Part shown: positions 567 to 56,060 of the stretch, piece after piece
Position numbering within the stretch: the first letter of the stretch is position 1
Layout of the letters: every line of letters begins with the position of its first letter
Assembly (NCBI RefSeq): GCF_900607235.1
Contig: NZ_LR027862.1
Coordinates: forward strand, 1-64,000
Direction: 5' to 3'
DNA: 64,000 nt
From: Olivibacter jilunii
GTDB lineage: Bacteria; Bacteroidota; Bacteroidia; Sphingobacteriales; Sphingobacteriaceae
Made by a program: the position numbers and the translations under genes
Notes under the pieces: model-generated
What the model was told of the DNA's origin: nothing
What the model saw: the letters and a program-made list of their open reading frames with translations, nothing else
The model's database searches: none

Positions 567-1631
567 ATGCTTGATTATTTGCAACACCTTTCACAAGAAA
601 TGCCAGATTGGATTTGGAATTTAACCGTAATTCTGTTCTCGATATCCATTGGCATCATTTTGAAGTCTATACTTCTTCCCTTAGCTAAACAACAGTCAAA
701 AAAAGAACTATCGTATTCAATTTTCAGATCCATTATTCGTCATTTCAATAAAATTTTCACCATTTTCATTCCTCTTTTGACCTTTAGTTCCCTACTTCCA
801 TTAACTAAATTCAATGCTTCTAGCTACGTAGTTATTTCTAAAACAACAGAGATTCTAATAACGCTATGTTTTGCGATCATTATTATCCGAATGTTACGCG
901 TGTTCGAAGATTATCTTTACCACCGTTTTGATATAAGTAAAGAAAACAATCTTCGGGAGCGGAAAATTCGTACGCAAATTGTCTTTATTCGAAAATTGTT
1001 GATAACGCTCATTGTTGTCATTACGGTATCCATTATCTTACTAAGCTTTGAGAGCATGCGTAAAATAGGCGCAGGGCTACTAACCGGTGTAGGAATAGGA
1101 GGAATTATCGTCGGTTTTGCAGCTCAGAAGTCCCTCGGAAATCTGCTAGCCGGTTTTCAGATTGCTTTTACCCAACCCATACGCATGGACGACGTACTCA
1201 TCGTTGAAGGTGAGTGGGGGAAGGTCGAGGAAATCAATTTAACTTACGTAGTTTTGAACATCTGGGACAAGCGTCGTCTCGTGTTGCCAATCAATTACTT
1301 TATCGAGAAACCCTTTCAAAATTGGACTCGAACAACTGCCGAAATTTTAGGTACTGTATTTATCTATACTGATTTTCTGGTTCCAGTTGAAAATTTACGC
1401 CAGAAATTTGCCGAACTGCTGAAGGGTAACCGCCTGTGGGATGGCAAAGTGAATGTATTACAAGTAACCGATCTAAGAGAGCAAACAATGGAGATTCGAT
1501 GTTTAATGAGCTGTAGAAACTCAGGGGATGCATTCGATCTAAGATGTTATGTACGAGAAGAAATGGTAAAATATATCCGTACAAACTTCCCCGAAGCCTT
1601 CGCCAGAACAAGAATTACAATGATTGAATAA
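567..1631 (+). CDS. MscS-family small-conductance mechanosensitive channel
   Basis: Inner-membrane channel that opens under membrane tension and releases solutes on osmotic downshock. The 354-residue protein has hydrophobic helices at about residues 15-35, 60-80, 95-115 and 145-165. They are followed by the glycine/alanine-rich pore helix (around 175-200, with GVGIGGIIVGFAAQ and LGNLLAG) and the MscS beta domain (QPIRMDDVL, then GEWGKVEEI, then LPINYF). It is longer than E. coli MscS (286 aa) by an extra N-terminal helix. It stands alone: the next gene is convergent and ends about 20 bases away. Family certain, physiological role inferred. Confidence 0.9.
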   Translation: MLDYLQHLSQEMPDWIWNLTVILFSISIGIILKSILLPLAKQQSKKELSYSIFRSIIRHFNKIFTIFIPLLTFSSLLPLTKFNASSYVVISKTTEILITLCFAIIIIRMLRVFEDYLYHRFDISKENNLRERKIRTQIVFIRKLLITLIVVITVSIILLSFESMRKIGAGLLTGVGIGGIIVGFAAQKSLGNLLAGFQIAFTQPIRMDDVLIVEGEWGKVEEINLTYVVLNIWDKRRLVLPINYFIEKPFQNWTRTTAEILGTVFIYTDFLVPVENLRQKFAELLKGNRLWDGKVNVLQVTDLREQTMEIRCLMSCRNSGDAFDLRCYVREEMVKYIRTNFPEAFARTRITMIE

Positions 1632-27083: not shown

Positions 27084-27087
27084 CAAT

Positions 27088-27188
27088 GCTTATTGAGAAA
27101 GACGGAGGGATTAGACCCTGCGAAGTCTTGGCAACCTGTGCTTACAAGGTGCTACATTCTACCTGATTCAATATCGGGAAAGATAAGC
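27088..27188 (+). ncRNA. SAM-I riboswitch (S box) upstream of metH
   Basis: The aptamer core is recognizable: GCTTAT (27088-27093) closes P1 with ATAAGC (27183-27188). Between them lie GACGGAGGGATTAGACCCTG, the CTTGGCAACC segment, and AAGGTGCTACATTCTACC. These are the conserved SAM-I joining regions and P3/P4 bases. SAM binding should shut the met genes off. Downstream, ATTGAGAAA (27092-27100) can instead pair with TTTCTCAAT (27209-27217), and a TATCTAT/ATAGATA hairpin (27242-27262) lies near the start codon. These are candidate expression-platform parts. Confidence 0.92.
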
Positions 27189-27289
27189 AAAAGTCATTTT
27201 CTAGGCTTTTTCTCAATGCAAGCATCATTTTAACGATAAAATATCTATTTGGGAGATAGATAACAACCTGTATATGGTTTAAGTGCCGT

Positions 27290-31562: not shown

Positions 31563-32519
31563 ATGAAAATAACAGATCATATCTCAAACGCGAAAAACAA
31601 AACCCTCATCTCCTTCGAACTGCTCCCTCCCATCAAAGGGCAAAGTATTCAAGGCATCTTTAATACCATTGATCCCTTAATGGAGTTCAATCCCCCTTTT
31701 ATCGATGTTACTTATTTAAGAGAAGACTATATTTACAAGCAACATCCAAACGGTTTGCTGGAAAAGGTGGCATATCGCAAACGGCCAAGTACCGTTGCAA
31801 CCTGTGCAGCTATTATGAATAAATACAAGGTAGATGCCGTACCACATCTTATCTGTGGTGGATTTACAAAAGAAGAAACGGAAAATGCTTTAATTGATTT
31901 ACAATTTTTAGGTATTGATAACGTTCTTGTACTACGTGGCGATGCACGAAAAAGCGAAAGCTCCTTTGTACCAACTCCCGGAGGCCACGCCTATGCATCC
32001 GATCTGCTACAACACGTCGTTAACATGAATAATGGTCAATACTTGCATGACTATATGGACAATACTGAGAAGACCGATTTCTGCATTGGGGTGGCGGGAT
32101 ATCCGGAGAAGCATTTCGAAGCGCCGAACCTTGAAACTGATTTCCAATACCTGAAACAAAAAGTGGATCTAGGCGCCAATTTTATTGTGACCCAGATGTT
32201 CTTTGATGTCAATAAATATAAAGCCTTTGTTGATAAATGCCGTGCTAACGATATTAACATCCCCATTATTCCGGGATTAAAGCCCCTTACCACCAGTAAA
32301 CAGCTTACAAGCCTGCCGAAGGTTTTCCATTTGGATATACCTTTAGAGTTAAGCAAGGCCGTACAAGCCTGCAAAAGTGAAAAAGAGGTAAAAGATGTTG
32401 GCATTGAATGGATGATCCAGCAGTGTAAAGACCTTATAAAAATGGGAGCACCTGTATTGCATTTTTACACAATGGGTAACCCGGAACCGACCAAAAGAAT
32501 TATACAGGGGGTATTTTAA
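31563..32519 (+). CDS. metF: 5,10-methylenetetrahydrofolate reductase
   Basis: FAD enzyme producing methyltetrahydrofolate, the methyl donor for MetH. The 318-residue TIM barrel shows FELLPPIKG near the N-terminus (catalytic Glu), FIDVTYLRED, HLICGGFTKEE, NVLVLRGDAR, FCIGVAGYPEKHFEAPN, GANFIVTQMFFD and PIIPGLKPL, all MetF signatures. The start codon is 7 bases after the S23 gene stop and inside the right arm of the inverted repeat. Co-transcription with metH under the riboswitch is likely. Confidence 0.97.
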   Translation: MKITDHISNAKNKTLISFELLPPIKGQSIQGIFNTIDPLMEFNPPFIDVTYLREDYIYKQHPNGLLEKVAYRKRPSTVATCAAIMNKYKVDAVPHLICGGFTKEETENALIDLQFLGIDNVLVLRGDARKSESSFVPTPGGHAYASDLLQHVVNMNNGQYLHDYMDNTEKTDFCIGVAGYPEKHFEAPNLETDFQYLKQKVDLGANFIVTQMFFDVNKYKAFVDKCRANDINIPIIPGLKPLTTSKQLTSLPKVFHLDIPLELSKAVQACKSEKEVKDVGIEWMIQQCKDLIKMGAPVLHFYTMGNPEPTKRIIQGVF

Positions 32520-33786: not shown

Positions 33787-34400
33787 ATGCTTGCTAAAAG
33801 CTTTTAACAACATACTAAAACAAACACATTTTACTTTTCTGAGATTTCTTTCTGCGTGCACGGAACCGTTGATGCGAAAAGATTATGTATGGCGTTTTAT
33901 TATCACACATGGCTAACTATTTTTCAAAACTGAGATTCACCCAATTTAATCTCTATTTGTTGTCAGCAACCAACTGGCAATATACCCTTTTACCTGTTTC
34001 AACTTTTTACACGTTTGCACCTCATACGAATCCCCCTCCCGTTGAGGCGATAACCCTTCAAACCTAAGATTATGATAAACTGAACCTGCCAAATATAGCA
34101 CAGGCAGGAATGCAACGGTAAAGCGTGACGCTTTATCGAAAGAGCTTTTATATCATAAATGTAACACAGATGAAACCTGCATAAATTGCAATACTGAAGA
34201 CAGTAAATAACTGAATGTAGTGAGTTCATGAATGTCATTGAACCGCCGAAGGTAGCACGAACCGAGTGACATGAGCTCATGATACCATTGAACATAAACG
34301 TTCATGAATAACACCTTTGGATTAGACACGAAATGAACAAACAAATGCAAATGAATAATTTATGCAAGCTTCATTGCCATTAAAAAACAAATTCATTCCA
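33787..34400 (+). other. Long structured leader upstream of orphan susC
   Basis: About 610 bases separate the promoter from the likely susC start. In order it holds a start-proximal hairpin and a 60-codon open frame at 33885-34067 of doubtful status. Next is a three-way-junction-like fold, then copy 1 of the dispersed palindromic element. It is either a long regulatory 5' UTR or an independent small RNA. Confidence 0.5.
34070..34158 (+). ncRNA. Candidate structured RNA (three-stem junction)
   Basis: TTATGATA (34070-34077) pairs with TATCATAA (34151-34158). It encloses CCTGCC/GGCAGG (34085-34090 with 34103-34108) and a 9-bp hairpin capped by TGA (34117-34125 with 34129-34137). I match it to no known riboswitch class. 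Pairing is by eye only. Confidence 0.35.
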
Positions 34401-40222: not shown

Positions 40223-41662
40223 ATGACAAAGGATTCTTACGATGCGATTGTGGTGGGTTCCGGCCCCAATGGGTTGGCAGCAGCCATCACCATGCAGAAA
40301 GCCGGATTGGAAGTTTTACTGATAGAAGCGAAGGAAACAATAGGAGGCGGCCTACGATCCGCACAATTTATGGATTCAGGAAATATATATGATATATGTT
40401 CTGCTATACACCCGATGGCACTTCAATCTCCCTTTTTCAAGAGATTACCCCTTGAACAGCATGGGTTAACTTACATAAATCCGCCGATTATGGCGGCTCA
40501 TCCCCTAGACGGGGGGAAGGCTGTAGGGCTTTTTTCTTCACTAGAGCAAACATCCGGTCAGTTCAATACAGATAAAAACGCCTACATTCATTTATTTAAA
40601 CCCTTAACAAAGTTATGGCCCACACTGATCAGCGACTTATTAGCCCCTTTTCATATACCTTCGAATCCTTTCCCGCTCATACGTTTTGGCAAGAACGCAC
40701 TTCTATCGGCAACGCAACTCGCAAAACGCTTTCAAACCGAAGAACTGAAAGCTCTATGGGCAGGTATGGCGGCTCACTCCATGTTGCCCTTAGATTATAT
40801 GACTACATCGGCGGTGGCATTGGTGCTATCTATCGCCGGTCATACCGGAGGTTGGCCTATTCCCCGAGGCGGATCGCAGCAAATAGCCAATGCCTTGGCT
40901 TCTTATTTTAAGTCGATTGGCGGGGACATTGAAACAAGTTTTTATGTAGACTCGCTTAAAAAGCTTCCTACGGCCCGAGCATTTCTTTTTGATCTAGGGC
41001 CAAAGCAATTGATACAAATTGCAGGGGATCGATTCCATGCCTCCTATCGGAGACAACTTGGCAGATATCGCTATGGGATGGGTGTTTTTAAAATTGATTG
41101 GTTGCTTGACGGTCCTATACCCTTTCAGTCAGAGCAATGCAGAAAAGCCGGCACTGTACATCTCGGTAATAGTCTACAGGAAATTGCCCATGCAGAACGA
41201 CAAGTCTGGGAAGGGAAACATCCGGAGAGACCTTTTGTACTGCTTGCCCAACAGAGTTTGTTCGATACCACCCGCGTAATGGGGAATCATCAAATTGCCT
41301 GGGCCTATTGCCATGTCCCAAACGGTTCAACTGTTGATATGACCATGGCTATTGAACAACAAGTAGAACGATATGCTCCGGGATTTAAAGATCAAATAAT
41401 TGCCAAGCAATGCATGAATACACATGCCTATGAAATCTACAATCCAAACTATATAGGTGGCGACATCAATGGAGGCGTAATGGATCTTAAACAATTATAT
41501 ACCAGACCCGCTTTGAGGTGGTCGCCCTACGGCACGCCTGCGAAAGACATTTATATTTGTTCTTCTTCAACGCCTCCCGGTGGAGGTGTGCATGGGATGT
41601 GTGGATACCATGCCGCAAAACAAGCATTAAAAAAGCGTTTCGGAATTGAAGTAGATTTTTAG
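40223..41662 (+). CDS. Phytoene-desaturase-like FAD oxidoreductase
   Basis: A 479-residue flavoprotein of the COG1233 phytoene dehydrogenase-related group. The N-terminal dinucleotide loop is IVVGSGPNGLAAAITMQKAGLEVLLIE, ending in the FAD ribose-binding Glu. GGGLRSAQF follows, and the C-terminal FAD motif is CSSSTPPGGGVHGMCGYHAA. No carotenoid gene neighbours are present, and the closest pattern is the PYROXD2-like group, so a role in carotenoid synthesis is not claimed. Cytoplasmic. It lies just upstream of the sulfatase island but probably has its own transcript. Confidence 0.82.
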   Translation: MTKDSYDAIVVGSGPNGLAAAITMQKAGLEVLLIEAKETIGGGLRSAQFMDSGNIYDICSAIHPMALQSPFFKRLPLEQHGLTYINPPIMAAHPLDGGKAVGLFSSLEQTSGQFNTDKNAYIHLFKPLTKLWPTLISDLLAPFHIPSNPFPLIRFGKNALLSATQLAKRFQTEELKALWAGMAAHSMLPLDYMTTSAVALVLSIAGHTGGWPIPRGGSQQIANALASYFKSIGGDIETSFYVDSLKKLPTARAFLFDLGPKQLIQIAGDRFHASYRRQLGRYRYGMGVFKIDWLLDGPIPFQSEQCRKAGTVHLGNSLQEIAHAERQVWEGKHPERPFVLLAQQSLFDTTRVMGNHQIAWAYCHVPNGSTVDMTMAIEQQVERYAPGFKDQIIAKQCMNTHAYEIYNPNYIGGDINGGVMDLKQLYTRPALRWSPYGTPAKDIYICSSSTPPGGGVHGMCGYHAAKQALKKRFGIEVDF

Positions 41663-41750
41663 CATTACATAAGCGATCTTAGGCCAAATAGGTAAAATTT
41701 ATAGCCTAAATAGGAAGTTTTTATTCCTAACGATGCATGTTCCATGCCTG

Positions 41751-41758
41751 TATATTTG
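41751..41758 (+). promoter_or_regulatory. -7 element of the sulfatase operon
   Basis: TATATTTG matches the -7 consensus but lacks a TTG 17-23 bases upstream, as expected for an activator-dependent promoter. The start would be near 41765. Confidence 0.45.
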
Positions 41759-41773
41759 TGTTGAGTTTAATGT

Positions 41774-41788
41774 CTACTAAATAAGTAG
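41774..41788. promoter_or_regulatory. Candidate operator in sulfatase operon leader
   Basis: CTACT-N5-AGTAG dyad about 10 bases downstream of the predicted start and upstream of the Cys-rich leader ORF. The position suits a repressor; the regulator is not in the window. Confidence 0.35.
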
Positions 41789-41819
41789 TCTATTTATTAA
41801 AATCAGCAAAAACATACAA

Positions 41820-41942
41820 ATGAATACAATTGAACAAAGAACGCCCTTAAAGAAGGAAGAGGTCATTAAAAAACGCCTAAATAGTCCCGCCTTTACGATC
41901 CATTCTATGCAATCAGCCATGTGCTATTCCTGTTGTTGCTAA
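41820..41942 (+). CDS. Cys-rich leader peptide (candidate cysteine attenuator)
   Basis: A 40-codon ORF read directly from the sequence. It begins MNTIEQRTPLKKEEVIKKRL and ends with Met-Cys-Tyr-Ser-Cys-Cys-Cys before TAA. Three consecutive Cys codons (41931-41939) abut the stop. They lie in a small hairpin, GTTGT (41932-41936) with ACAAC (41942-41946). The peptide precedes susC by 106 bases in a locus full of sulfur genes. By analogy with amino-acid leader peptides, ribosome stalling at Cys codons could control the operon. Expression and mechanism are inference. Confidence 0.55.
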   Translation: MNTIEQRTPLKKEEVIKKRLNSPAFTIHSMQSAMCYSCCC

Positions 41943-42003
41943 CAACCCATCTCCGCAAATTATTCCATTTTCTAACGATTTCATCTTTTGCTTTTCCTAA
42001 TCA

Positions 42004-42022
42004 CTTCGTGTCGATTACGAAG
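42004..42022 (+). promoter_or_regulatory. Hairpin between leader ORF and susC
   Basis: CTTCGT (42004-42009) pairs with ACGAAG (42017-42022) around a 7-base loop, 27 bases before the susC start. No T-run follows, so if functional it would act on translation or by pairing with upstream leader sequence. Confidence 0.35.
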
Positions 42023-42048
42023 CTGTATGCAACTAACAATAATATACA

Positions 42049-45000
42049 ATGATTAATCATTTTGCTAAACTATATAGGCTTGTTTTTCCGTTCCACAAAA
42101 ATTTATGGCAACTATTTTTGTCAACTCTTCTTTTATTTTTAAGCGGAAATCTATGTGCACAGGTTACAAAGCCTTTGATCAATTCCACACTCGATGGAAA
42201 AGTGTTTGATAGTAACTCGAAAGAGCCACTCCCGGGCGCCACTGTCTCGATTGAAGGAACCACCCATAAAGCTAGTACGGATGGCGATGGGAAATTCAAT
42301 TTTATCACCGGACAAAAGTTCCCCTATACACTTATCATTAACTATATTGGTTATAAAGTTAAGAAAGTTATTGCAACGGGAAGTCCAATAGCCATTGGAC
42401 TAGAGCCCGATTTCAACCAATTGGAAGACGTGGTAGTGGTAGGTTATGGTACACAAAAACGTGGTGACCTGACGGGATCGGTTGCTTCTGTTCCGGCAGA
42501 GCTAAAGAGCCAACCTGTCGCTTCTCCGGAGCGCCTATTACAGGGATCTGTACCGGGCGTGGTTGTTACGCAAACCTCTGGTCAGCCAGGCGGCGGAGTG
42601 AGTGTGCAGATAAGGGGGAATAACTCCATTACGGCCGGCAGTGATCCCTTATATGTTATAGACGGCTTTCCGCTTAATAACGACTATTCACTAAACGACG
42701 CCGGCGTCACTACGGGTTCCAAAATAAACCCTTTATCTACCATTAACACCTCTGACATTGAGTCTATTGATGTATTGAAAGATGCTTCGGCAACTGCGAT
42801 TTACGGATCGAGGGGCGCTAACGGCGTGGTGATTATCACTACTAAAAGTGGAAGTCGGAATAAATCTTCTATAAATTATGATGGGTACTATGGCTTCCAG
42901 GAGGTGATAAAAACCATCCCTTTATTGAACGCCGGGGAATGGTGGCAGTTGCGAAAGGATGCGGCCGTTAACTCAGGTAAATCAGCTTCGCTTCCAGCGG
43001 TGTCGGGCTATTCATTAGATACGAGTGGCGTGGGGACCGACTGGCAGGCGGCCGCTTTTCGGGAAGCACCTATTCAAAACCACAATTTGTCTATTTTAGC
43101 AGGGAGCGAAAAAACCCGGTTAGCTATCTCAGGCAACTATTTTGATCAAGATGGGATTCTACAAAACACCGGATTTAGAAGAATATCCGGACGAATAAAT
43201 GTTGCCCACGACTACAATGAAAAATTAAAGTTTACAAGCAATATTTCAGCAAGCCAGTCGAAAGCCGATGTTGCCCCAACAGCAGTTGTCGCTAATTTAT
43301 TATTGACCCCGCCGTCTCTTCCCATCTATCAGGACGACGGTTCGTATGTAATTTATAGTCCTTTCGAATCAAGTTTACAGAACCCTATCAACTCCCTATA
43401 CAATCAGTTAAATGAAACAAAAACCAATCGCTTGCTGGGGAATATCGCGGGTGAATATGAAATCATTACAGGATTAAAAGCGAAAGTGCTGATAGGTGTC
43501 GACATTGTCGATAATAAACAGAATCGTTATTTACCAAAAACCACCGCCGAAGGTTTGGATTTAGGGGGCTTGGCACAAGTCGGCTCTGTTTTTACCTCCA
43601 ACTGGTTAAACGAAAACACGTTAAGTTACGACAAGGTGATCGGTGAAAAGAACAGGATCAATGCCGTGGTAGGGTTTACCGCACAGCAATCGAACAGTGA
43701 AGGCACCGTTGCGGAAGCAGCTGGATTTGCGACCGATGCCTTTAGCTTTAACAATTTAGGGACGGGCGTAACCAATAGAACACCGAGCTCGATTGCCAAT
43801 GAATGGTCGCTTGCCTCCTATCTGGCAAGAGTGAACTATGCTTATGACAGTCGATATCTATTCACCCTAACGTTTAGGGCTGATGGATCCTCTAAGTTTG
43901 GGGCTGGGAATAAATGGGGATATTTCCCTTCAGCGGCGTTTGGTTGGAATGTGAGTAATGAAGCATTCTTTAAGAATGTAAAACAGATAAGCCAGCTTAA
44001 AATTCGCTTAAGCGCGGGTACAACAGGCAACCAAAATATCCCGTCCTATCAGTCGCTATCGCGATTGAGCTACTTTAGATATAATTTCTCCAATACAACC
44101 GTACACGGTTTCGCACCTATAACGGTCCCAAACCCGGATTTGGGCTGGGAGAAGACCTTTCAATTTGACGGTGGAATTGACGTAGGTTTTTTTAACAATC
44201 GGATCAGTTTAGTTGCAGATTACTATTATAAAAAAACGACCGATCTGCTCCTAAGCCGTACCGTGCCCGGGACGTCAGGCTTAGCCGAGTTCGGAGGCGG
44301 ACAAGCGTCCACCATCTATCAGAACATCGGAGCGGTGTCTAATCAAGGAATAGAGGTATATGTCAACTCGAATAATTTGATCGGAGATTTTACCTGGAAA
44401 TCTATCTTGGTTTTCGCTAAAAATACAAACAAGATTCTTGACTTGGGAGAGGGCGTCGATCAAATTATTCCGGTAATCTCACAACCCTCCATTGCTAAGG
44501 TAGGCTATCCATTGGGCTCTTTTATCGTTTACCAAACCGATGGCATCATTCAAGAAGGCGACACGCCCCTAACACCGCAACAAAACAAAAATCCAGGTGG
44601 ACAAAAATATAAGGATATCGACGGTGATGGTCAAATTACACAGGCAGGGGATCGAGTTGTGATCTCCAATCAACCTGGATTTACGGCCGGATTTACCAAT
44701 AACTTTTCTTATAAAGGTTTCGATTTATCCGTTTTCTTTCAGAGTTCTGTAGGCGGGAAAATTTACAATGCCAATCGGGCTAATTTGGAACTAGGTACCG
44801 GTTATGTAAATGCGTCCAAAGTGCTGCTAAACCGCTGGACGCCTAACCACACCGATACGGATGTAAAGGCTGCTTTTCAAGACCCGGCAATTACCATTTC
44901 CGACCGCTTTATTGAAAGCGCAACTTACCTCCGTTTGAAAAATCTATCATTTGGATATACCATACCCAAACGAGTTTTTGGGAATTCGGGCTTCGATTCA

Positions 45001-45165
45001 CTTCGCATCTATGTATCAGCACAAAATTTATGGACGTGGACCGACTATACGGGCTTTGATCCGGAGGTGAGCTTAAACGAACAATCTTTAATTAATAAGG
45101 GAATTGACCAAGGTGTTTACCCTAATAGTCGATCTTTTCAACTTGGACTCTCATTGACATTATAA
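42049..45165 (+). CDS. susC: SusC-type TonB-dependent receptor of sulfatase operon
   Basis: Outer-membrane TonB-dependent importer, 1038 aa. The signal peptide of about 38 residues ends GNLCAQ. A regulatory-like domain follows (LDGKVFDSNSKEPLPGATVS), then EDVVVVGYGTQKRGDLTGSV, the plug (VIDGFPLNND, IDVLKDASATAIYGSRGANGVVIITTKSG) and the barrel ending SFQLGLSLTL. It belongs to the common VVVGYGTQK subgroup and differs from the two other SusCs here. With susD, sulfatase and thiol proteins behind it, the cargo is probably a sulfated compound. Confidence 0.95.
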   Translation: MINHFAKLYRLVFPFHKNLWQLFLSTLLLFLSGNLCAQVTKPLINSTLDGKVFDSNSKEPLPGATVSIEGTTHKASTDGDGKFNFITGQKFPYTLIINYIGYKVKKVIATGSPIAIGLEPDFNQLEDVVVVGYGTQKRGDLTGSVASVPAELKSQPVASPERLLQGSVPGVVVTQTSGQPGGGVSVQIRGNNSITAGSDPLYVIDGFPLNNDYSLNDAGVTTGSKINPLSTINTSDIESIDVLKDASATAIYGSRGANGVVIITTKSGSRNKSSINYDGYYGFQEVIKTIPLLNAGEWWQLRKDAAVNSGKSASLPAVSGYSLDTSGVGTDWQAAAFREAPIQNHNLSILAGSEKTRLAISGNYFDQDGILQNTGFRRISGRINVAHDYNEKLKFTSNISASQSKADVAPTAVVANLLLTPPSLPIYQDDGSYVIYSPFESSLQNPINSLYNQLNETKTNRLLGNIAGEYEIITGLKAKVLIGVDIVDNKQNRYLPKTTAEGLDLGGLAQVGSVFTSNWLNENTLSYDKVIGEKNRINAVVGFTAQQSNSEGTVAEAAGFATDAFSFNNLGTGVTNRTPSSIANEWSLASYLARVNYAYDSRYLFTLTFRADGSSKFGAGNKWGYFPSAAFGWNVSNEAFFKNVKQISQLKIRLSAGTTGNQNIPSYQSLSRLSYFRYNFSNTTVHGFAPITVPNPDLGWEKTFQFDGGIDVGFFNNRISLVADYYYKKTTDLLLSRTVPGTSGLAEFGGGQASTIYQNIGAVSNQGIEVYVNSNNLIGDFTWKSILVFAKNTNKILDLGEGVDQIIPVISQPSIAKVGYPLGSFIVYQTDGIIQEGDTPLTPQQNKNPGGQKYKDIDGDGQITQAGDRVVISNQPGFTAGFTNNFSYKGFDLSVFFQSSVGGKIYNANRANLELGTGYVNASKVLLNRWTPNHTDTDVKAAFQDPAITISDRFIESATYLRLKNLSFGYTIPKRVFGNSGFDSLRIYVSAQNLWTWTDYTGFDPEVSLNEQSLINKGIDQGVYPNSRSFQLGLSLTL

Positions 45166-45179
45166 ATAACGCGTGAAAT

Positions 45180-46745
45180 ATGAAAATTCTTAGCTATATC
45201 TTAATACTCATTATCGGACTTAGTTTTTCTTCTTGCAAGAAATTTCTGGAAGAGGAGCCCGCCTCCGTTATATCGGAAGATCAGTTTTATAAGACACAGG
45301 ATGATGCACTCAATGCGGTAAACGCGGTATATTTTTTTCTTAACTCGGGCGGATCTTCTGTTCAAACACCTTACAACACCTTATTTAATACCGGGATGAA
45401 CATGGCCGGTGATGATGAGGATCCAGGCCCTGGAGCGACGAACCCGGATGTACGGTCACTTTCCGTTCTGGCCCACTCATCTACCAATCTCCGAATTTAT
45501 GAAATCTGGCAGCAGCATTATGCGGCTATTAAGCGTGCCAATGTGGCTTTAGCAAAAATCCCCAACATAGATTTCGACAGCAGTTTAAAAAACAGGTTAC
45601 TGGCCGAGACAAAATTCTTACGTGCCTTATACTACTTTAATCTCGTTCGCTTGTATGGCGACGTTCCATTAGTACTTAGTTATGAAACCTATATTGATGC
45701 CAACGATTATGCAATTGCGCGGACACCTAGCACAGCGGTCTACGCACAGATTGAAAAGGACCTAAAGGAAGCTGCGGAAGTATTGCCGGATCGCTATGCA
45801 GCGCCCGATATCGGCCGGGCAACGGCTGGCGCTGCGAAAGCTTTATTGGCAAAAGTTTATTTAACGGAAGCATCTTTACCATTGAAGCTGGAGGACAATT
45901 ATGCCAATGCCGTGCTAACAGCTGAAGAAGTGCTCTCTGCCCAAGATGGTGGTACCGGAAATTACGGATACGATCTTTTCGAAAACTATGCCGAGGTATT
46001 TCTTCCCGATTTTAAAAATGGGAAGGAACACATCTTTTCAGCCCAGTTTAAGTCAAATTCCCTTAATCAGGGTAATAATGAAAATCCACGTGCCATATTG
46101 AGCGGTGTTCCGGGATTGCGAGGGAACTATGCGCATATGGTACGTTATTATAAAGAAGGTAGCGATAATTTTTTCAGTATCTATAAATTGTATAAACCAT
46201 CCGATAAACGCCGATCTGTCACTTTTGTTACCAGTTTCATCAGTCCGACGAACGGACGTCAATATGCGCTTCCGCTTAACAACCCCGCCGTACCGGGAGA
46301 TTCGACGCCGTTTTTTCATAAATGGTGGGATCCCAATTCCACGGCTGTCCCAAGTGAATCAGCCGCCAATGTACCTATTATTCGGTATGCGGAACTTTTA
46401 TTGATTCATGCCGAAGCAGAAAATGAGCAGAATGGCCCTACCCTTAAAGCGTATCAGTCGATCAATCGCGTGCGAAGGAGAGCGGGACTACCCGATTTGA
46501 CACCTGGCCTCACCAAGGATCAATTTCGCGATTCGGTTTACCTTGATCGAAGGCTGGAGTTAGTATATGAATATCAACGTTGGTTTGATCTGATCAGAGA
46601 GAAAGATGCTTCGGGCAACAGTGTTTTTGTAAAAAGTCTACATAAGGTGGGTAAGACTAACGCTGCAGAGAAACATCAATTATACCCTATTCCGCAATCA
46701 GAAATCGACAACAATCATTTGCTAACACAAAACCCCGGTTTTTAA
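45180..46745 (+). CDS. susD: SusD/RagB lipoprotein of sulfatase operon
   Basis: Surface substrate-binding lipoprotein, 521 aa. The signal peptide ends LSFSSC (lipid Cys near 19), followed by KKFLEEEPASVISEDQFYKT, the canonical RagB/SusD start. AETKFLRALYYFNLVRLYGDVPL, a TPR-like stretch, and the C-terminal RRLELVYEYQRWFDLIREKD with QLYPIPQSEID confirm the family. It starts 14 bases after susC and is followed by the sulfatase. Confidence 0.95.
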   Translation: MKILSYILILIIGLSFSSCKKFLEEEPASVISEDQFYKTQDDALNAVNAVYFFLNSGGSSVQTPYNTLFNTGMNMAGDDEDPGPGATNPDVRSLSVLAHSSTNLRIYEIWQQHYAAIKRANVALAKIPNIDFDSSLKNRLLAETKFLRALYYFNLVRLYGDVPLVLSYETYIDANDYAIARTPSTAVYAQIEKDLKEAAEVLPDRYAAPDIGRATAGAAKALLAKVYLTEASLPLKLEDNYANAVLTAEEVLSAQDGGTGNYGYDLFENYAEVFLPDFKNGKEHIFSAQFKSNSLNQGNNENPRAILSGVPGLRGNYAHMVRYYKEGSDNFFSIYKLYKPSDKRRSVTFVTSFISPTNGRQYALPLNNPAVPGDSTPFFHKWWDPNSTAVPSESAANVPIIRYAELLLIHAEAENEQNGPTLKAYQSINRVRRRAGLPDLTPGLTKDQFRDSVYLDRRLELVYEYQRWFDLIREKDASGNSVFVKSLHKVGKTNAAEKHQLYPIPQSEIDNNHLLTQNPGF

Positions 46746-46794: not shown

Positions 46795-48627
46795 ATGAAG
46801 AAAATAATCAATACTTCTCTCTTTTTGCTAGGTACGCTCTCGGCAGTACAGGGGCAAAATATCACGCAACAGCAAGAACCTTTTAAAGGTGTTGTTGGTA
46901 CCAATTATGCGAATTCAAAGGAATCTTGGGTAGACCCCATAAAAGCCCCCTCGAACGCGCCAAATGTCATCTGGATTTTATTGGATGATGTTGGATTTGG
47001 AGCAAGCAGTACGTTCGGTGGTTTAATTAATACCCCAACTTTTGACAGTTTAGCGAACAATGGTTTGCGCTATACCAATTTCCATACCGCAGCCATCTGT
47101 GCGCCCACGCGAGCGGCTCTTCTAACAGGCCGTAATCACCATCGTGTACATGAGGGTGGTTTCTCCCACCGTTGGTCAGCATTTGGCTTTCCGGGCTGGG
47201 ATGGCCGAATACCTGCTGACAAAGGTACCATCGCCGAAATATTAAGAGAACAGGGTTACAGCACTTTCGCCGTGGGGAAGTACGGATTGACACCTGATCA
47301 GGACGCAACGGATGCAGGCCCTTTTGACCGATGGCCTTCCGGTAAGGGTTTCGAACATTTTTTTGGTTTTCTTGGGTCGGCAACAGACCAATATGAACCG
47401 GATTTAGTAGAAGACAATGCACACGTCACGCCCAATGGCAAGCATTTGAGCGAGCAAATAACCGATAAAGCGATCAGCTTTATTGACCGACAAAAAAGTG
47501 CAGCGCCTGACAAACCCTTCTTTTTGTATTATGCCCCGGGAGCTACGCATTCACCGCATCAAGTGGAACCTAAATGGCGGGATTTATATAAAGGAAAATT
47601 TGATAAGGGCTGGGATCATTACCGAGAACAAGTATTTAAAAGGCAAAAGGAATTGGGTATCATACCGGCTAATGCCAGCTTGCCTGCACGAAATCCCAAT
47701 ATCAAAGCCTGGGACAAATTATCGGCTGACGAGAAAAAGGTATATGCTCGCTTTTTTGAAGTCTATGCAGGCTATTTAACTTATACCGATTATGAAGTAA
47801 GTCGTTTAGTGAATCACCTAAAAGAGATCAATCAGTTGGATAATACGTTAATTTTTGTCATTCTCGGAGATAACGGAGCCAGTAAAGAAGGAACTTTATA
47901 CGGTACCATCAAGCGCTCGCCGACAGCTGCCCTGCAACAGGATCTGAGCGAAGAGGAGGCGCTCAAGGTCAATCTGGCAAATTTCGATCTGATCGGCACT
48001 CCTCAAGCCACCAATGGAAACTATCCTTTAGGGTGGGCTCAAGCTGCCAATACACCATTTAAATATTGGAAGCAAGATGCGCACGCAGAGGGCGGAACAC
48101 GAAATCCGTTAATTGTTTTTTATCCGAAATCGATTCAGGATAAAGGAGGGATTCGGAATCAATACGGCCATGTGAACGATTTATTACCCACCACGCTGGA
48201 ATTTCTCAATATTAAAGCGCCTGCGTATATCCGTGGTATTAAACAGGATACCATTCAAGGAACGTCTTTGTTGTATTCTTTTGCTGAAAAGAACGCTCCA
48301 TCACGTCACTCCGTCCAATACTATTACATTTTCGGTTCACGGGCTATCTATAAAGACGGTTGGAAGGCAAGCTTGGCCTTTAAGATTGCCGATGGTAAAG
48401 GGGGGAAAAGTCGCAATGTGAGCTTTGAAGACCCCAACCATATCGACTGGCAGCTATTTAACCTTCATGAAGACTTCAATGAACAACATGATTTGGCTAA
48501 GAAAAATCCCGCTAAACTCGAGGAGCTGAAAGCGTTATTCGAGGAGGAAGCAAAGAAAAACAATATATACCCCTATATAACCTGGGATGATGTTACTGAT
48601 AGGCGAAATACATTGTCAAAACAATAA
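46795..48627 (+). CDS. Formylglycine-dependent arylsulfatase
   Basis: Exported type I sulfatase, 610 aa, that hydrolyses sulfate esters. The signal peptide ends VQGQ near residue 21. The metal-binding aspartates are Asp64-Asp65 in WILLDDVGFGAS. The modification motif CAPTRAALLTGR has Cys102, which must be converted to formylglycine; the cysteine form means an FGE or anSME is needed, and an FGE lies at 52115. Further signatures are GKYGLTP, FFGFLGSATDQY, FVILGDNGAS and NTPFKYWKQDAHAEGGTRNPLIV. Overall layout resembles AtsA-like arylsulfatases. The true substrate is unknown. Confidence 0.95.
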   Translation: MKKIINTSLFLLGTLSAVQGQNITQQQEPFKGVVGTNYANSKESWVDPIKAPSNAPNVIWILLDDVGFGASSTFGGLINTPTFDSLANNGLRYTNFHTAAICAPTRAALLTGRNHHRVHEGGFSHRWSAFGFPGWDGRIPADKGTIAEILREQGYSTFAVGKYGLTPDQDATDAGPFDRWPSGKGFEHFFGFLGSATDQYEPDLVEDNAHVTPNGKHLSEQITDKAISFIDRQKSAAPDKPFFLYYAPGATHSPHQVEPKWRDLYKGKFDKGWDHYREQVFKRQKELGIIPANASLPARNPNIKAWDKLSADEKKVYARFFEVYAGYLTYTDYEVSRLVNHLKEINQLDNTLIFVILGDNGASKEGTLYGTIKRSPTAALQQDLSEEEALKVNLANFDLIGTPQATNGNYPLGWAQAANTPFKYWKQDAHAEGGTRNPLIVFYPKSIQDKGGIRNQYGHVNDLLPTTLEFLNIKAPAYIRGIKQDTIQGTSLLYSFAEKNAPSRHSVQYYYIFGSRAIYKDGWKASLAFKIADGKGGKSRNVSFEDPNHIDWQLFNLHEDFNEQHDLAKKNPAKLEELKALFEEEAKKNNIYPYITWDDVTDRRNTLSKQ

Positions 48628-48660: not shown

Positions 48661-49365
48661 ATGAAACAATTAATCTTAGGCGTGCTATTACTGTTCACGC
48701 TAGAGGCAGTAATGGCACAAGAAAAAACAACTAACCTATTGCCTTTCGAGACATTTGAAAAAAAGCTATTGGCTGCCGGACCTGATCCCCAAATTTTGGA
48801 CGCTCGTTCTGAAGAAGAGTTTATACAAAATCACGTAAAGGGAGCGCTGAATGTATCCGATGAAAAGCAGTTTAAATCAATAGTATCGAAATTAAGAAAG
48901 GAGGCGCCCGTATTTATTTACTCTATTGGCAACGGGCGAAGTGCTAAGTTGGCTGCGGTTTTGCGCGCACTGCATTTTAAGGAGGTGTATGAATTTCCGG
49001 GAGGACTTAGTAAATGGATAGCACAGGGGAAACCCGTTGAATCGACAGTGGGAGATGGTTTGTCATTGGCAGGATTTAACGAGCAAATTACATCAGAAAA
49101 GTTGGTATTAGTTGATGTCGGATCTCGTTATTGTGGCGGATGTAAAAAACTGAAACCGATCGTGGAGAAGTTAGCGGAAGAAAATAAGGATAAACTTAAA
49201 TTGGTTAATATCGAAGCCTACGATAATAAGCAGCTAACGAAAGCGCTAGCTGTGGACGCATTACCGACACTCATCTTATACAAGGGAAAAGAGGTGGTTT
49301 GGAAAAAACATGGACTGAGTTCGGAAGAAGAAATTCTTACCGAGTTGAATAAACATAAAATTTAA
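48661..49365 (+). CDS. Rhodanese-like/thioredoxin fusion, rhodanese Cys lost
   Basis: Exported 234-residue protein (signal peptide ending VMAQ at 20). The rhodanese-like domain (about 25-125) has the loop FIYSIGNGRSAK with Ser88 where the catalytic cysteine should be, so sulfurtransferase activity is probably lost. The thioredoxin domain has SRYCGGCKKLKP, with Cys158 and Cys161, a CGGC motif instead of CGPC, and the cis-proline loop ALPTLILY. Compare the intact paralogue at 39191-39925. It sits between the sulfatase and two micropeptides, suggesting a redox or chaperone role in the same pathway. Confidence 0.9.
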   Translation: MKQLILGVLLLFTLEAVMAQEKTTNLLPFETFEKKLLAAGPDPQILDARSEEEFIQNHVKGALNVSDEKQFKSIVSKLRKEAPVFIYSIGNGRSAKLAAVLRALHFKEVYEFPGGLSKWIAQGKPVESTVGDGLSLAGFNEQITSEKLVLVDVGSRYCGGCKKLKPIVEKLAEENKDKLKLVNIEAYDNKQLTKALAVDALPTLILYKGKEVVWKKHGLSSEEEILTELNKHKI

Positions 49366-49677: not shown

Positions 49678-50634
49678 ATGATACAATTTATTGAAGCCAT
49701 ATTTGAAAATTTAAACACATGGGGGCTTGCGGTGCTGACGCTGATTGTCGGTATTGCTGAGTTTTCGTTAGGCCTTTACGGAAAGGAATGGAATCGAAAT
49801 GAAAAAATACTTGACCTTGCCTGCTATGCTTTGCCTAGATTGGTGACAAGGCCGTTAGTGGCTTATTTTGGGTTGAAACTTGTTCCCTTCGTTTTACCGC
49901 ACGCAAAGGATGCATTTGAGTGGGTTCCCTTTTTCTGGGGCTTTGTGATTATCTGTATTTATGACGATTTGACGCAATATTGGTATCATCGGCTTCATCA
50001 TGAAATCCCCTGGCTTTGGCGATTTCATCGAACACACCATTCGGCTTCGTATATGGGAATGGCCATGGCATCCAGACAAAATATTATTTATACGATCTTT
50101 TTCTCGCAAACTTACTTAACAGTTATTTTAGTGTATTTAGGTTTAGGTTACCCTGCTTTGTTTGCAAAGGGAATAAAGTCATTGATTACTAAAATGGCAC
50201 ATTCGAGTATTAAATGGGATAAACCTTTTTATGAAAAAAAATGGCTTCATCCACTTGCATGGATACTTGAAAGAACGATTTCCACACCGGCAACCCATCA
50301 TGCTCACCATGCAGATACAACCGATGATGGGATAGGATATTACAAAGGAAATTTCGGTAATATGTTTTTCCTTTGGGATGTTATTTTTGGGACGGCGTTA
50401 ATAACCCGGCAATACCCGAAATCTTATGGTATTTCTCATTATGAAGGTGATGAGTGGTACGCACAGCTCCTTTGGCCCCTATTAAAATCCAGCGTGCCCG
50501 GAAGCGAATTGGCTGCACATGGCCCGATGGTACGCGAAGACATCCAACCAAATGAGGTGGAAGTAAATAACACAAAGGAAGAAGTAACCGCACCCTTGGA
50601 AACCGACGGAATTCAACCGAGGTTCACCGCTTAA
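49678..50634 (+). CDS. Sterol desaturase/fatty acid hydroxylase family protein
   Basis: A 318-residue membrane di-iron enzyme. Several TM helices (about 15-35, 60-80, 90-105, 145-165) surround the histidine clusters YHRLHHE, FHRTHHS and ATHHAHHAD that bind two irons. Family members hydroxylate or desaturate lipids using oxygen. The C-terminal tail (about 270-318) is hydrophilic. It is last in the sulfatase transcript, ahead of a strong terminator. Its substrate and reason for being in a sulfur operon are unknown. Confidence 0.88.
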   Translation: MIQFIEAIFENLNTWGLAVLTLIVGIAEFSLGLYGKEWNRNEKILDLACYALPRLVTRPLVAYFGLKLVPFVLPHAKDAFEWVPFFWGFVIICIYDDLTQYWYHRLHHEIPWLWRFHRTHHSASYMGMAMASRQNIIYTIFFSQTYLTVILVYLGLGYPALFAKGIKSLITKMAHSSIKWDKPFYEKKWLHPLAWILERTISTPATHHAHHADTTDDGIGYYKGNFGNMFFLWDVIFGTALITRQYPKSYGISHYEGDEWYAQLLWPLLKSSVPGSELAAHGPMVREDIQPNEVEVNNTKEEVTAPLETDGIQPRFTA

Positions 50635-50732: not shown

Positions 50733-52049
50733 ATGAGTGAAGGAATAACATCGGCCGAAACCGTTCTTCAGGAACAAGATTTATCGCCGGAATTACAAAA
50801 TCTACCGAAGCGGAATTTTCTTACAGAGGATTGGACCGTCGTGATATTGGGTTTCATCATTATCGGCCTTGCTATTTTAGGTTTTCACGTGGAAGCACCC
50901 AAGTACAAATGGTCAGCTATTGAGAGCTTGTCTTCCGTGTTTGAAGCTGCGAACCTCCTCAAGCTATTCAAGCAGCTTATTTTTACTTTTGCGCTGCTGA
51001 TTCTGGGGGGGCTGTTAACAGGTAGAAGAATAAAGCCATATTTGCTCGGTTTTCCCGTTGTATTTTTCTTAACGGCACTCGCCTTGCTATTAGCAGGCAA
51101 TAAAACGATGGAAGATCTGGGATTGGAAGCCGTTATTTTCAGTCTGCTTGTAGGCCTATTGGTAGGCAATACGGTTAAACTGCCTGTTTGGCTTAAAGAA
51201 GCCTTATCGGCCGAACTTTTGGTGAAAATAGGCTTGGTATTGCTCGGAACAAATGTGATCTTTTCCGATATCCTCAAAGCGGGTTCACTAGGCCTCATCC
51301 AATCCTTAGTTGTTGTATTGTCAGTGTGGTATTTTTCTTTTTGGCTATGTAAGAAGTTTAAGATAGATGAAGAATTGGGTTTAATGTTATCCAGTGCCGT
51401 ATCCATTTGCGGGGTTTCTGCCGCCATCGCTACATCAGGCGCTATACAAGGCGACTCCAAGAAATTATCATATGTTGTCTCTATGGTGTTAATTACGGCT
51501 ATTCCCATGATGATTATCATGCCTTACATCGCGAATTATTTTGGTTTCTCGGAAGAAGTAACAGGAGCTTGGTTAGGCGGAAGTATCGATACCTCGGGAG
51601 CGGTGGTAGCCTCCGGTTCCCTGGTAGGCGAAACGGCGCTAAAAATAAGCACGATCGTTAAATTTTCTCAAAACGTCTTATTGGGAGTAGCTGCACTTGC
51701 TATTTCTGTTTATTGGACCTATACCAATCATCCTGCAGGAAAGGAAGCCGCCAACAAACCGAGTTTAGGTGTCATTTGGGAACGTTTCCCCAAATTTGTT
51801 TTAGGCTTTATCGCCGCGTCTTTATTATTTTCATTTTTCTTGCAACCCGATACGGTGGCGTCGGTAAAAGGGGATATAAAAAGTATACAAGGCTTATGGT
51901 TTGCCCTTGCGTTTACAAGTATCGGTTTAGAAACAAACTTTAAGGATTTAATCAGAGAGAATAGCAAGCGCCCATTTTGGGTTTTTCTAATCGCTCAGTT
52001 ATTTAATATCATCCTTACCTTAGTACTGGCAATGCTTCTTTTCGGATAG
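50733..52049 (+). CDS. YeiH-family putative sulfate/sulfite transporter
   Basis: A 438-residue inner-membrane protein of the YeiH (UPF0324) family with about 10-11 TM helices. Conserved segments are FSLLVGLLVGNTV, VKIGLVLLGTNVIF, SICGVSAAIATSGAI, GAWLGGSIDTSGAVVASG and the C-terminal AFTSIGLETNF. Family members are annotated as putative sulfate exporters and are linked with sulfite stress. The N-terminal 50 residues before the first helix are an extension. It has its own likely promoter and operator behind the terminator. Direction and ion are not proven. Confidence 0.9.
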   Translation: MSEGITSAETVLQEQDLSPELQNLPKRNFLTEDWTVVILGFIIIGLAILGFHVEAPKYKWSAIESLSSVFEAANLLKLFKQLIFTFALLILGGLLTGRRIKPYLLGFPVVFFLTALALLLAGNKTMEDLGLEAVIFSLLVGLLVGNTVKLPVWLKEALSAELLVKIGLVLLGTNVIFSDILKAGSLGLIQSLVVVLSVWYFSFWLCKKFKIDEELGLMLSSAVSICGVSAAIATSGAIQGDSKKLSYVVSMVLITAIPMMIIMPYIANYFGFSEEVTGAWLGGSIDTSGAVVASGSLVGETALKISTIVKFSQNVLLGVAALAISVYWTYTNHPAGKEAANKPSLGVIWERFPKFVLGFIAASLLFSFFLQPDTVASVKGDIKSIQGLWFALAFTSIGLETNFKDLIRENSKRPFWVFLIAQLFNIILTLVLAMLLFG

Positions 52050-52114: not shown

Positions 52115-53209
52115 ATGCAATCTATGAACAACTATAGCAATCGATGGATTCAGGCTTTGGTAGGCGGAGCAATGATATTATCAGCCTGTAATTCAACTGC
52201 GGATAAATCAGCCAATCAAAAAGACTCCGTAGCAATGTGTGTTTCAGAAGGAATTCCTTCACGAGCTGCAGCCGTAAAAAAGACACAAGAAAACCTGTTA
52301 CAAGGAGCTGATGATGCGAAGATGGTTTTTATTAAAGGAGGCTTTTTTCAAATGGGTTCAAGCGAGTTTGCTGATACCCAGCCGATTCATGAGGTGAAGG
52401 TCCATGATTTTTGGATGGATGAGCACGAGGTAACCAATGCGCAATTCGCTAAGTTTGTAGAGGCTACCGGTTACATCACCGTAGCGGAAAGGGCTCTGGA
52501 CCCGGCCGACTTCCCCGGAGTTTCGAGGGATTTACTCGTTCCGGGATCGGCGGTATTCACGCCCCCCAAAGAGCCGGTAAATCTAAATAACCATCTACAA
52601 TGGTGGAAGTATGTGCCCGGAGCTTCTTGGCGACAGCCTAAAGGGCCTGGGAGTAACATTAATGGAAAGGAAAACGAACCCGTTGTTCAAGTAAGCTATG
52701 AAGATGCAGAGGCATTCGCCAAATGGGCCGGAAAGCGCCTGCCCACCGAAGCGGAATGGGAATATGCTGCGCGTGCCGGACAAGTGGGAAAAAAGTATTA
52801 TTGGGGGGATGAATTAAAACCGCAAGGTAAATGGGTTGCCAATACCTATCAGGGAAATTTTCCGGTGAGTAATGCCGCAGAAGATGGCTTTGCGGAGCTT
52901 GCTCCCGTAAAATCCTTTCCAGCAAACGCATATGGTTTATATGACATGGAAGGAAATGTTTGGGAATGGTGTGCTGATTTCTATCGTCCCGATGCTTATG
53001 AGCATGCGGAGAAGGATAATCCCAAGGGCCCAAGTGATAGTTATGATCCGGCCGAACCGGGGCTGGTCAAGCGTGTCCAACGAGGCGGCTCATTTTTATG
53101 TAACGAGCAATATTGTGAACGTTACAAAGCAGGTAGCAGAGGAAAAGGAGAAGTGAGTAGTGCAAGCAATAACCTAGGCTTCAGGTGTGTACAGGATCAG
53201 GCACCTTAA
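52115..53209 (+). CDS. Formylglycine-generating enzyme, lipoprotein form
   Basis: Copper-dependent oxidase that converts the sulfatase CxPxR cysteine to formylglycine. The 364 aa carry the FGE-sulfatase fold: FIKGGFFQMGS, DFWMDEHEVTNAQFAKFV, RLPTEAEWEYAARAG, YGLYDMEGNVWEWCADFY, and RGGSFLCNEQYC with the two catalytic cysteines Cys329 and Cys334 at the true FGE spacing. The N-terminus is a lipoprotein signal ending LSAC, so it acts outside the cytoplasm, where it would meet the exported sulfatase. Start could also be ATG 52124. Confidence 0.92.
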   Translation: MQSMNNYSNRWIQALVGGAMILSACNSTADKSANQKDSVAMCVSEGIPSRAAAVKKTQENLLQGADDAKMVFIKGGFFQMGSSEFADTQPIHEVKVHDFWMDEHEVTNAQFAKFVEATGYITVAERALDPADFPGVSRDLLVPGSAVFTPPKEPVNLNNHLQWWKYVPGASWRQPKGPGSNINGKENEPVVQVSYEDAEAFAKWAGKRLPTEAEWEYAARAGQVGKKYYWGDELKPQGKWVANTYQGNFPVSNAAEDGFAELAPVKSFPANAYGLYDMEGNVWEWCADFYRPDAYEHAEKDNPKGPSDSYDPAEPGLVKRVQRGGSFLCNEQYCERYKAGSRGKGEVSSASNNLGFRCVQDQAP

Positions 53210-55962: not shown

Positions 55963-56060
55963 AGATGAAACCTGCATGAGTTGCAACTCAAAAAAGATAA
56001 GAATAAATCTAAGCTCATGCAAGCTTCATTGCCATTAAAAAATAGATTATTCTAATGAAA
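55963..56060. repeat. Dispersed palindromic element, copy 2
   Basis: ATGAAACCTGCATGAG (55965-55980) pairs with CTCATGCAAGCTTCAT (56014-56029), 14 of 16, enclosing GAGTTGCAACTC and an A/T-rich loop. The tail ATTGCCATTAAAAAA and following AATGAAAA match copy 1 (34168-34408). It lies between the divergent DUF4835 gene and fabI. Confidence 0.65.

Follow-up and report, generated by a model that had tools for sequence, protein, structure and literature searches.

A putative cysteine-sensing leader peptide upstream of a SusCD–sulfatase operon in Olivibacter jilunii, with counterparts at other sulfur loci of Bacteroidota

The window, a stretch of 64,000 nucleotides of DNA from Olivibacter jilunii, a member of the Sphingobacteriaceae, harbours an operon that opens with a SusC/SusD pair and continues with a sulfatase and further genes (Table 1). 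Sulfur-metabolism genes, as assigned with Pfam and NCBIfam, are expected downstream of a Cys-responsive attenuator, and here they follow a short ORF whose translation is MNTIEQRTPLKKEEVIKKRLNSPAFTIHSMQSAMCYSCCC (40 aa). The end of this leader ORF is separated from the SusC start (42049) by 106 nt. The preliminary description placed four cysteines within the last six residues of a 40-codon ORF, three of them consecutive and immediately before TAA, and the sequence confirms this. The two leader proteins tested, among them that of the window, gave no Pfam or NCBIfam family. A direct search of 99 other genomes with the leader protein recovered one convincing relative (E 4.7e-4), the next match standing at 0.04.

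Table 1. Positions in the window of the leader, its flanking elements and the downstream genes
Feature	Position	Strand	Remarks
TATATTTG, match to the −7 box (TAnnTTTG)	41751..41758	+	69 nt before leader ATG
Palindrome TCTACTAAATAAGTAGT	41773..41789	.	Possible operator of a sulfur regulator, candidate
Leader ORF, 40 codons, ends MCYSCCC-TAA	41820..41942	+	ATG 41820, TAA 41940-41942
Cys-codon tract TGC TAT TCC TGT TGT TGC TAA	41922..41942	+	Candidate stalling site
Hairpin GTTGT-TGCTA-ACAAC, 5 bp	41932..41946	+	Exact repeat, arms 41932-41936 / 41942-41946; overlaps Cys codons and stop
Candidate sequestering stretch, 18 nt	42028..42045	+	Can pair with Cys tract; just before SusC ATG
SusC/RagA TonB-linked outer membrane protein	42049..45165	+	TIGR04056, E 7e-269
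SusD-family lipoprotein	45180..46745	+	PF07980, E 1.7e-39
Sulfatase	46795..48627	+	PF00884, E 4.3e-59
Rhodanese-thioredoxin fusion	48661..49365	+	PF00581 and PF00085
Fatty acid hydroxylase family protein	49678..50634	+	PF04116, E 7.8e-23
YeiH-type putative sulfate exporter	50733..52049	+	PF03601, E 1.2e-52; TIGR00698 below its cut-off
FGE-like sulfatase-modifying factor	52115..53209	+	PF03781, E 4e-81

The sequence TGYTGYTGYTRA occurs once in the window against 0.18 occurrences expected, and 50 times in the whole genome against 13 for a reversed-pattern control. When all 50 places were read, just two proved to terminate ORFs that possess a start codon and are at least 30 codons long; each of the two precedes sulfur genes: besides the window leader, there is a 49-codon ORF that ends HCSCMYMCCC and is located between a SAM riboswitch and metY. 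SusC signatures match at 142 places in this genome. Thirty of these were examined, and the window SusC is the only one with a Cys-tail ORF upstream (0 of the 29 others).

The −7 promoter box of Bacteroidota has the consensus TAnnTTTG. The match in the window stands farther from the leader ATG than in several homologues, where the distance is just 26–34 nt. Of 23 Sus loci with a leader, 18 have the box in the 170 nt ahead of the leader, compared with 3.4 in shuffles; none of the 23 has it in the interval from leader to susC, where 2.4 were expected. Judged from these predicted boxes, the transcript of the regulated genes would carry the short ORF in its 5' leader, as is characteristic of Cys-responsive attenuators. 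A palindrome of the form NCTAY-N4-8-RTAGN is found upstream of 20 of the 23 Sus leaders, against 1.0 in shuffles, and the count remains 20 with a constant spacer of 7. The palindrome was rejected as the mark of a genome-wide regulon: the strict form TCTAYWN5WRTAGA has 14 sites and its reversed control 12. Among the 14, one site lies before an arylsulfatase-like gene, one before a cystathionine beta-synthase/CysK-like gene and one before metN.

Conservation was surveyed by a SusD search of 251 genomes of the family, which gave matches in 48; 41 of the 52 non-self places were read. In a congener (G003, L003/L062) the orthologous SusC is preceded by a 40-codon ORF ending MCHSCCC. Residues 34–40 of the two leaders are identical at six of seven positions and residues 2–33 at nine of 32; in the DNA itself, 22 of 24 nt agree from codon 34 to the stop, against 51 of 96 in codons 2–33. 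A strict definition of the leader was applied to the related loci: an ATG-initiated ORF of 10–75 codons, no more than 700 nt before SusC, whose final seven residues include three or more Cys. Such an ORF is present at 22 of the 41 related SusC loci, against 0.26 in shuffles (largest 2), which ignore the kinship of the loci, and 0 on the reverse strand. When the same definition was applied to other residues, the next commonest was Leu, at seven of the 41. The expectation that the Cys codons would be kept while the rest of the ORF drifts, voiced when the leader was first noticed, is borne out by the congener comparison and by this recurrence; a conserved Cys-codon run near the stop of a drifting body is a further property of Cys-responsive attenuators. 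The tails are carried by unrelated bodies and include FFPSCCC, RNRCCC, MCMPCCCC, MCVSCCC, MRMCLSCCC, CCTCCC and MCHSCCCC.

The strict definition failed at 19 of the 41 loci, some of which display weaker tails (RMRMC at L107, FRMCMC at L110, RMRMCI at L120). Extra upstream sequence was fetched for 13 loci, with L281 and L282 left out of the examination. A Cys-tail ORF lies in the added stretch at four loci, one of which (L276) had entered the count above as the leader of L099. The other three, far upstream, head longer operons: one stands before FGE (L274), another before a fatty acid hydroxylase gene followed by a sulfatase gene (L278), and the third (L277) precedes a 133-codon frame that has no Pfam match. 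No Cys-tail ORF was present even in the extra upstream stretch at, for example, L089, L090, L092, L093, L095, L096 and L098.

The ORF might be thought to make a functional Cys-rich peptide that is expressed along with the sulfatase operon and either binds metals or thiols or is the precursor of a RiPP. The conserved CxxCCC end could indeed bind metal, but the bodies are unrelated and vary in length from 18 to 56 codons in 23 Sus leaders and from 33 to 64 in 13 Met leaders. The lack of a protein family in both leaders tested, the absence of RiPP-modifying families among the window genes tested and the start of the metY-locus ORF 8–12 nt after a riboswitch likewise make this explanation very improbable.

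The Cys codons behave as codons. Over 36 leaders both are employed (TGT 88, TGC 49), as are all three stops (TAA 27, TGA 6, TAG 3); other residues are interspersed in the tails (CCTCCC, MCLSCCC, MRMCCCYA) and the frame is open from an ATG. Accordingly, there is very little chance that the GUUGUUGC tract acts as a nucleic-acid signal, in RNA or DNA, instead of as codons, a proposal that would draw on TGTTGTTGC being the commonest tail (10 of 36 leaders) and lying within a small hairpin in the window and three congeners. This hairpin, GTTGT/ACAAC, had been put forward from the sequence of the window, where it is exact; it is not general, being confined to four of 23 leaders, all in this genus, and absent in the other 19. 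The distribution of AACAA within 12 nt after the stop is the same (window and three congeners; none of 19 other leaders). In the minimum-energy fold predicted for the window, the Cys tract pairs elsewhere, outside the hairpin.

A different question is whether the codons report on cysteine alone. Met is enriched near the tail: of the non-Cys residues, 61 of 416 are Met in the last 16 positions, compared with 12 of 635 in the rest of the leader (Fisher p 2.6e-15, an optimistic value because the leaders are related), and motifs such as MRMC and MCMC recur. A leader that senses sulfur amino acids generally, Cys together with Met, would account for these features; yet the run adjoining the stop is Cys, and the Met enrichment may stem from shared ancestry of the leaders, so that this broader specificity appears rather unlikely.

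An unbiased scan of 84,980 species genomes was performed with the pattern ATGTGYNNNWSNTGYTGYTGYTAA (M-C-x-[S/T/C/R/W]-C-C-C-stop). It yielded 84 stretches, of which 80 were listed as loci and read. For downstream proteins, fragments of 70 residues proved too short for Pfam in seven of eight cases and longer proteins were used. A recognised gene lies close downstream at 35 loci: metY at 18, SusC at six, PhyH at five, metX at two and CysH, OsmC, NhaC-type and AhpC/TSA at one each, the counts for families other than MetY and SusC serving as labels and not as an independent test because the queries were taken from the same loci. All but two of the 35 belong to Bacteroidota (33), the exceptions being Glaciecola (metX) and a Lachnospiraceae MAG (metY). 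The idea of a Cys-codon leader ORF ahead of a sulfur operon, already supported by the conservation test, fits this pattern. Several of the tails contain six consecutive Cys. At 38 of the remaining 45 loci the match overlaps a larger ORF and seems to be due to chance; four of the 80 contain a stop within the pattern.

A palindrome similar to that of the window precedes five of the six SusC leaders of the scan, four of the five PhyH leaders (the fifth has only 46 nt of upstream sequence available) and the AhpC-type leader; at metY it precedes one of 18 leaders in the scan and none of 13 in the family. The PhyH-type dioxygenase genes behind poly-Cys leaders (L150, L162, L169, L181, L201) occur in Flavobacterium and Mucilaginibacter, and their genomic context suggests a possible sulfur-scavenging role. 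At L203, a fluoride riboswitch (1544-1606, minus strand) is located between AhpC/TSA and chloride-channel-type genes, downstream of the poly-Cys leader. Eight of the nine matches in Pelagibacteraceae (L126, L136, L138, L147, L149, L165, L171, L200) fall inside a 274-codon ORF, and these ORFs share one downstream gene family, FtsY-like by eye; they are read as chance matches of one gene family.

Leaders at metY show a distinct organization. A metY gene scored above cut-off in 92 of 121 family genomes, and 30 of the 92 loci were read. The strict Cys-tail definition holds at 13 of the 30 (shuffles 0.18, reverse strand 0), and seven more have related tails by eye, for instance RRYMCMCQ and MRHMCC. 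All 20 family metY loci scanned for RNA families, out of the 30, contain a SAM riboswitch. The 12 strict metY leaders with a mapped aptamer have an in-frame ATG 8–12 nt past the aptamer end, which at L208 and L215 is the second ATG. At the pattern-scan loci an aptamer was located in 12 of the 15 scanned; the first ATG past it is at +8 or +9 in seven of the 12 and at +16, +20, +63 and +87 in four, and at L144 there are two ATGs, located at 0 and +111 relative to the aptamer. No SAM riboswitch (RF00162) was detected at the window leader or in the 12 SusC loci scanned. The genome of the window also contains the metY arrangement: at L078 (G000:C8, 1813-146, minus strand) the order is SAM riboswitch, poly-Cys leader, metY. 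From the aptamer to the second ATG of this leader is 10 nt, a spacing at which SAM could control whether the Cys leader is translated. The start of metX, recognised by eye, follows metY at L078. Elsewhere in the window, a SAM riboswitch (27087-27189) precedes metH (27290; Pfam), with TCTATTTGGGAGATAGA, another palindrome of the possible-operator type, between the two at 27244; a gene for MTHFR (metF) is found at 31563.

The RNA step that would couple the leader to susC was approached by structure prediction. A classical attenuator with an intrinsic terminator was considered and rejected, as no GC-rich hairpin with a U run was found between leader and susC; the sole terminator-like site in 41500-42300 lies upstream of the leader. 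Predicted pairing of the Cys tract with the 5'UTR exceeds that of shuffles in the window (z −2.3), and is not above shuffles overall (mean z −0.44 in 23 Sus and −0.17 in 13 Met leaders). Masking of the Cys tract by a ribosome raises the predicted accessibility of the SusC start region in the window from 0.32 to 0.66, compared with +0.14 for random masks. Over 23 Sus loci the mean change is +0.015, with values above +0.05 in three and below −0.05 in two; a gain is also clear in two metY loci (L209, L236), with little or none elsewhere. These models are suggestive of alternative RNA structures tied to ribosome position in the window, and not in general. Because pairing and masking have a predicted effect in the window and not across loci, we are confident of the sensor and put forward the RNA step only as an inference.

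Other repeated elements were encountered in the 5'UTRs and in the window. A hairpin around ATTGGCGTTG is situated 42–254 nt before SusC in 20 loci picked by the exact 10-mer (L089-L099, L102-L105, L107, L115, L119, L120, L123); the reverse-complement core AACGCCAATCA takes its place in eight (L109, L111, L112, L116-L118, L121, L122). In an alignment of 19 sequences, from which L107 was left out, two-sided changes occur at three of nine predicted pairs. Neither form has an Rfam match in the loci scanned, and both cores are absent at the four close congeners compared with the window (L084-L087). The ATTGGCGTTG-type 10-mer was rejected as a genome-wide repeat, its counts in six genomes being about those of the reversed control. 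This hairpin may be a second 5'UTR element, relevant at loci other than the window. Separately, an identical 21-bp TGCAAGCTTCATTGCCATTAA is present in the window at 34363-34383, at a SusC gene start, and at 56018-56038, before an enoyl-ACP reductase-like gene; it was found at eight places in four of 21 genomes searched, once with a changed base, and all four belong to this genus.

Taken together, the evidence argues for a leader peptide that monitors charged tRNA-Cys through its terminal Cys codons and acts on the SusCD–sulfatase operon, a reading to which we assign a probability of roughly 0.85. Most likely, the leader reports cysteine shortage to a sulfur-scavenging operon. Transcription would start upstream of the leader, at a promoter with an operator-like palindrome, and the leader and the SusCD–sulfatase genes would therefore share one mRNA. 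When cysteine is scarce, a ribosome translating the ORF would stall on the UGY run and sustain expression of the operon, most likely because it keeps the 5'UTR beyond it open; this could either free the SusC start region or shield the mRNA from Rho-type termination. With ample cysteine, the ribosome would reach the stop codon and expression would be damped. Ribosomes of Bacteroidota have been reported to ignore Shine-Dalgarno signals, according to the available text of PMC9976891.

Two designs appear among the loci: an operator-like palindrome with a leader (SusC, PhyH), and a SAM riboswitch with a leader (metY). In a broader scheme, to which we would give even odds, poly-Cys leaders would be the common sensor of a phylum-wide sulfur network in Bacteroidota. 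They would be joined either to a shared operator palindrome, in sulfatase SusCD, PhyH and AhpC-type operons, or to a SAM riboswitch whose 3' end is often 8–12 nt ahead of the leader AUG. In the second case SAM could control whether the Cys sensor is itself translated, which would make a nested two-signal switch. If true, a widespread cysteine sensor would preside not just over biosynthesis but also over sulfatases and uptake across the outer membrane, and the leader would mark which of the many SusCD systems of a genome serve sulfur supply, not carbon. The arrangement of riboswitch followed by leader offers a testable two-input design.

Poly-Cys attenuators are known from actinobacteria; no report of one in Bacteroidota was found in the literature searched, which covered few subscription papers. 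In Bacteroidota, leader-peptide attenuation has been suggested before amino-acid biosynthesis operons of Flavobacterium psychrophilum (PMC9723704), the section of that paper on 5' cis-regulatory RNAs naming no cysteine or sulfur leaders. Short ORFs in long 5'UTRs of Bacteroides thetaiotaomicron have likewise been compared to leader peptides, with no Cys run mentioned in the accessible part of the source (PMC7366714). As described in the available portion of PMC8632094, the uORFC-8-2 motif before cysS in Rhodobacterales is a tandem-Cys uORF for which ribosome-mediated attenuation has been proposed; it comprises a pair of Cys codons, as a rule at positions 14-15, together with an intrinsic terminator, whereas the leaders described here have a terminal run and no terminator was found. 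Similar in form are the actinobacterial cys operons, upstream of which runs of Cys codons near the stop were proposed in 2005 (PMC1262725). As far as the accessible text of that paper goes, the likeness extends to a short ORF, a Cys run adjoining the stop, a position before sulfur genes and the lack of a conserved terminator. In mycobacteria, poly-Cys ORFs are designated leaderless and cysteine-responsive attenuators in the title of Canestrari et al. 2020 (cited in PMC13236596); the promoter-like box 69 nt before the ATG of the Olivibacter ORF would speak against a leaderless start there, the shorter distances in several homologues notwithstanding. The leaders reported here further differ from the actinobacterial ones in belonging to another phylum, in preceding SusCD–sulfatase genes and metY, and in being accompanied by a palindrome or a SAM riboswitch.
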